64,000 bases of DNA, from NCBI GenBank assembly GCA_003576845.1, contig QEVJ01000011.1, positions 1-64,000 of the forward strand, read 5' to 3'. Shown in pieces: positions 21,795 to 22,286 of this stretch (position 1 is the stretch's first letter; the number at the start of each line of letters is the position of its first letter). Under the pieces are notes generated by a model that was given only the letters and a program-made list of their open reading frames with translations, was not told the origin of the DNA and ran no database searches. The translations under genes were made by a program, and so were the position numbers. The stretch is from Planctomycetota bacterium. GTDB taxonomy: Bacteria; Planctomycetota; Planctomycetia; Pirellulales; PLA5.

Positions 21795-21843
21795 CAATCG
21801 CATTTCGTGGCACAACGCTTCCTCTCGTCCTCGAAGGCCCGCT

Positions 21844-22194
21844 ATGCCCCGCAAGATCGACTGGAGTTATCACCGCCCCGGTTGAGCGACCTGTGGCAAG
21901 ACGCAAGAGTTTCTTGCGAAGGCCGCGGTTGCGCCGAAGGAGACGGTCGACGCCCGCAAGCATACGCTCGCGGCGGCCGACGCGCTCGCCCTGGCGGCCG
22001 ATGCCAGCGAAATTTACGTCGCCAAAGGCAAGAGCGTGGTCCACGTGAACATGAAAATGGACAAGCCCGACGCGGATACGCTCAAAAAGCTGCTCGTCGG
22101 CCCGACGGGCAATCTCCGCGCCCCGACGCTACGCCTCGGCAAAACGCTCGTCGTCGGGTTCAATGAGCAGATGTACGACGAGTTGTTTCGATAG
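21844..22194 (+). CDS. ArsC/thioredoxin-like probable selenoprotein, in-frame UGA read as Sec
   Basis: 117 codons from ATG 21844 to TAG 22194, with one internal TGA at 21883-21885. Before it: MPRKIDWSYHRPG. After it, in the same frame: ATCGKTQEFLAKAAVAPKET, then a full-length ArsC-like remainder (KHTLAAADALALAADASEI, HVNMKMDKPDADTLKKLL, GNLRAPTLRLGKTLVVGFNE). Reading TGA as selenocysteine gives a U-x-x-C redox motif (U14-A-T-C17) exactly where thioredoxin/ArsC-type proteins have C-x-x-C. A hairpin fitting a bacterial SECIS lies 16 bases downstream. The family is, as I recall, annotated elsewhere as ArsC family (seleno)protein, a small cytosolic redox protein. No Sec machinery genes are in the window. 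A nonsense mutation is the alternative. Confidence 0.82.
21893..21926 (+). promoter_or_regulatory. SECIS-like hairpin downstream of the in-frame UGA
   Basis: Upper stem CGCAAG (21902-21907) pairs with CTTGCG (21913-21918) around the 5-base loop AGTTT. An internal loop (AAGA/AAG) leads to a lower stem, GTGGC (21893-21897) with GCCGC (21922-21926), which includes one G-U pair. The loop starts 22 bases after the UGA and has a G within its first two positions. Both agree with the published pattern for bacterial SECIS elements. Confidence 0.7.
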
Positions 22195-22197
22195 GTC

Positions 22198-22282
22198 GGG
22201 ATTCGGGATTCAGGATTCGGCATTCGGAGAATGCCGTGTTGCTGGGCGCCGTCCCCGAATCCCGAATCCCGAATCCTGAATT
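22198..22282. repeat. GGATTCGG heptad array, inverted
   Basis: GGGATTCGGGATTCAGGATTCG-type units at 22198-22227 are mirrored by CCGAATCCCGAATCCCGAATC-type units at 22254-22282. They fill the spacer before purH. Similar tracts occur before several other start codons in the window. Confidence 0.8.
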
Positions 22283-22286
22283 CCAC

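Follow-up and report, generated by a model that had tools for sequence, protein, structure and literature searches.

A short gene interrupted by an in-frame TGA

The window, by which we mean the whole 64,000-nucleotide stretch of planctomycete DNA analysed here, contains on its forward strand, at positions 21844–22194, a predicted ArsC/Spx-like selenoprotein gene identified by translation and by its match to the family model NF041106.1. The gene opens with an ATG at 21844, runs through 12 further codons to an in-frame TGA at 21883–21885, and continues in the same frame for 102 codons to a TAG stop codon at 22192–22194. Its translation comprises 116 residues, namely 13 (MPRKIDWSYHRPG), a putative selenocysteine (Sec, U) at residue 14, and then 102 more. 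The resulting UxxC motif reads U14-A-T-C17, with the codon for Cys17, the presumptive resolving Cys, at 21892–21894. A Shine-Dalgarno-like GAAGG, read from the sequence, lies at 21833–21837 on the same strand, 6 nt before the ATG. The original prediction, which had set the TGA at codon 14 and counted 102 codons from there to the TAG, proved exact in all its coordinates. Its remark that gene callers would stop at 13 codons was equally apt, the standard open reading frame list being without the full gene and giving instead an overlapping frame at 21807–22166. The locus offers a clean example of a gene cut to 13 codons by an ordinary ORF caller.

Between the selenoprotein gene and the following gene, which reads like purH, positions 22196–22283 hold direct repeats of the GGATTC type and, after these, the inverse complement of the repeats, possibly a terminator hairpin or a small repeat element. 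Searches of the window against Rfam gave no match, and a tRNA search of the window found no tRNA. A scan of the window for other genes split by TGA returned only candidates that, on visual inspection, resemble antisense frames and frames of adjacent genes. The downstream neighbour of the gene is common to the congener (genome G001) only, and no conserved operon partner turned up in the flanking sequence retrieved for the homologues, up to about 2.5 kb; the genomic surroundings therefore give no hint of a substrate. Plasmids and phages, when searched, contained no relatives.

Conservation of the TGA codon and the selenocysteine machinery

The family is carried by 116 of 298 genomes of the class. 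Homologues with U and homologues with Cys at residue 14, for which the original prediction had proposed a search, were both found: among 111 aligned homologous loci, a set that includes the window itself and one pair of duplicate fetches, the column of the TGA holds TGA in 71 and a Cys codon in 40 (TGC 33, TGT 7), and no other codon. Of these 111 loci, 110 also have the motif's second Cys. The single departure is a UGA-form homologue (L132, G192:C44) with Val at that position (U-T-T-V), whose near relative L131 retains the Cys. A second collection of 80 loci, reaching by record title into Planctomycetota, Acidobacteriota, Methylomirabilota, Gemmatimonadota and others, comprised 66 with TGA, 12 with TGC and 2 that could not be placed. 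Quick trees call for 18–20 changes between Sec and Cys; few of their branches are well supported, and two changes are forced.

Could the TGA have replaced an ancestral TGC or TGT, through sequencing error or in a pseudogene whose protein is no longer made? TGA is one base away from the Cys codons, and Cys homologues exist. The same TGA is conserved in the congener, however, and recurs in some 70 other species, and we therefore reject sequencing error. In the comparison of window and congener, the region after the TGA has a dN of 0.18 and a dS of 0.89 (dN/dS about 0.2), and third codon positions account for 47 of the 77 differences. This ratio, together with the full-length Cys homologues, bears out the claim that the region beyond the UGA is translated, and it argues against a pseudogene, as does an RNA hairpin, described below, that is kept only alongside the TGA. 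We consider decay or error of this kind to have practically no chance of being correct.

The genome from which the window derives (99% complete) encodes all four components of the Sec pathway that had been proposed as a check on the reading, each above its curated cutoff: a tRNA-Sec with anticodon TCA (UCA; 69.9 bits), SelA (513.5 bits), SelB (365.4 bits) and SelD (361.8 bits). The SelD match of this genome (L018; G000:C145:10145-11071, minus strand) itself contains one in-frame TGA, and SelD is for this reason probably a selenoprotein in its own right. The congener has tRNA-Sec and SelB; SelA was not found in its draft assembly, which is 92% complete. Of 70 genomes with the UGA form, the window's own included, 66 have a SelA above the cutoff; of 40 with the Cys form, 22 do (Fisher p = 1.5e-6, for sequences that are related by descent).

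A second tRNA shaped like tRNA-Sec was observed in the source genome (L002:1501-1592, minus strand, corresponding to G000:C119:34131-34222, minus strand). It has a long variable arm and scores 50.3 bits against RF01852, over the cutoff, and it carries the Cys anticodon GCA. In these respects it resembles the selC* class of tRNA-Cys, which has been reported from Firmicutes, Thermodesulfobacteria, Nitrospirae and Proteobacteria (PMC7609411). No DNA similar to it was found in the congener or in 10 genomes of the same order. The presence of such a tRNA lends some substance to a model in which the UGA is read as Cys or another residue, whether by this tRNA or through a general reassignment of UGA. 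A GCA anticodon, however, reads UGC and UGU and not UGA; the genome possesses a true tRNA-Sec(UCA) together with SelA, SelB and SelD; and the congener, in which the GCA-anticodon tRNA was not found, has the same TGA. We have accordingly rejected reassignment, to which we attach only a very slight probability.

A predicted bSECIS hairpin conserved with the UGA

Directly downstream of the TGA, the RNA is predicted to fold into a hairpin spanning 21886–21932 of the forward strand, the core of which is the hairpin at 21893–21926 noted in the original prediction. Its apical stem consists of 7 bp (21902–21908 paired with 21912–21918) closed by a GUU loop at 21909–21911, with a spacing of 23 nt between UGA and loop. 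According to a recent model, bacterial SECIS (bSECIS) elements have a loop of 3–9 nt with a G within its first two positions, an upper stem of 4–16 bp, a spacing of 16–37 nt from the UGA and a minimum free energy of at most -7.5 (PMC13188914). The window hairpin falls within all of these limits, so that the distance and the early-loop G cited in its favour are indeed present. The 34-nt core has a predicted stability of -16.1 kcal/mol, and z-scores relative to dinucleotide shuffles are -3.65 for 34 nt and -3.71 for 58 nt. When codons were shuffled synonymously and the protein kept, z was -2.76, and none of 200 shuffles was as stable.

Comparison of the homologues ties this structure to the UGA. 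Standard pairs fill 90% of the apical-pair cells in the UGA forms, a share that drops to 31–60% when the partners are slid by 1–3 columns; 67 two-sided changes fall in the apical pairs, and the GUU loop is present in 67 of 68 distinct UGA-form sequences. The Cys forms lack this pattern, with 39% of apical-pair cells paired, the same as in shuffles. At least 6 of the 7 apical pairs plus a loop beginning with G occur in 64 of 70 UGA forms versus 1 of 40 Cys forms, and in the second collection in 59 of 66 versus 0 of 12. The sequences in this correlation between hairpin and Sec are related by descent, and it includes only two independent contrasts on strongly supported branches. Fold stability beyond that of synonymous shuffles is likewise higher in UGA than in Cys forms (Mann-Whitney p = 6.5e-5). 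Six UGA-form homologues (L052, L053, L070, L086, L121 and L127) have fewer than 6 of the 7 pairs; several of them, judged by eye, form a stem whose register is shifted and whose loop is 4 nt long. One Cys homologue (L063, TGT) still has AAGGGTTCCTTGAG, apparently what is left of a decayed bSECIS.

The hairpin also appears to leave its mark on the protein. Since the codons for Q-(G/E)-F behind the motif also spell out the GUU loop and stem, these residues are found in nearly every UGA homologue; Cys homologues have lost the hairpin and, as a rule, these residues as well. The RNA element thus appears to shape the protein sequence.

Taken together, the column restricted to Sec and Cys, the Sec machinery and the bSECIS element uphold the original reading of the UGA as Sec at the first Cys position of a CxxC motif, and from these sequence data we strongly infer that codon 14 is decoded as Sec. 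Sec/Cys pairing and bSECIS conservation in combination settle such a case. We propose that SelB, carrying Sec-tRNA-Sec(UCA), would bind the hairpin directly 3' of UGA codon 14, that selenocysteine would be inserted there to yield a U-A-T-C active site, and that Cys17 and the selenol of Sec probably alternate between the reduced state and a selenenylsulfide. That the product is a 116-residue selenoprotein of the ArsC/Spx superfamily with a thioredoxin fold, made in this manner, we hold to be nearly certain.

Fold, likely function and relation to known selenoproteins

An AlphaFold model of the protein (mean pLDDT 87.9) has a thioredoxin-like fold with U14 just before helix 1. Profile comparison gave as best solved relatives an ArsC-like protein from Staphylococcus aureus (2m46), Spx and YffB, with E-values down to 2.3e-10; the best Foldseek match was Spx, although TM-scores to solved relatives were only 0.5–0.58. 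These proteins (PDB 2m46, 6ghb, 1z3e, 3gfk and 1rw1) belong to the same superfamily and have the active-site motif in the same place, but they share about 13–21% identity with the window protein in fold alignments and represent a different subfamily. Classical ArsC has a single Cys at the position of the UxxC motif rather than a CxxC pair. The earlier label "ArsC-like" stands at the level of the fold; among solved structures, those closest to the window protein are of Spx, YffB and ArsC-like proteins. No signal peptide is evident, and the protein is likely a cytosolic selenol/thiol oxidoreductase, its Sec/Cys redox cycle being suggested by fold and motif.

Might the protein instead act as a selenium-based, Spx-like redox switch on RNA polymerase and not as an enzyme? 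Its best profile and fold neighbour of known role is Spx, and it matches TIGR01617 (Spx/MgsR) below the cutoff; its score of 23.6 bits, however, is far under the curated 75.05, and we regard such a role as improbable. For the family as a whole, the broader notion of a selenium-based Spx analogue, whose Sec/Cys switch would signal oxidative or selenium status and perhaps touch RNA polymerase in place of housekeeping oxidoreduction, is a speculation that we think quite unlikely.

How does this gene relate to selenoproteins already described? In profile searches, for which its TGA was submitted as Cys, the window protein matched NF041106.1, "ArsC family (seleno)protein", over the whole model (residues 5–111, profile positions 1–107 of 107) with 141.2 bits and an E-value of 1.6e-41, 56 bits above the curated cutoff of 85. 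Its U14-A-T-C17 agrees with the UxxC or CxxC active site expected of that family. A scan of 40 aligned family members, the window protein among them, matched every one to the same model. The Pfam ArsC model PF03960 scored 22.9 bits, slightly under its gathering score of 24. Selenoproteins have been reported from planctomycetes (PMC4807772), and Table 1 of a 2026 review has an entry for NF041106 under the name "Arsenate reductase-like protein", with one Sec, in UxxC, and refers to Zhang and Gladyshev 2008 as its source (PMC13188914). Since the family is listed there by accession, the window gene is a further member of a selenoprotein family already catalogued. The description "hidden selenoprotein" fits to the extent that a plain ORF caller misses the gene, but is overstated given a dedicated (seleno)protein model at NCBI. 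The 2008 paper, on the Global Ocean Sampling selenoproteome, included 42 Sec sequences of "Arsenate reductase 2" (cd03032, UxxC; PMC2398784), which, like the window protein, have Sec in the UxxC motif of an ArsC/Spx-type protein; these come from marine metagenome reads, and the likeness is seen at the level of description. With NF041106 (ArsC_rel_Se_1), the window gene shares a full-length match, Sec in UxxC and a bSECIS element after the UGA, and it differs in species only and in nothing of substance.
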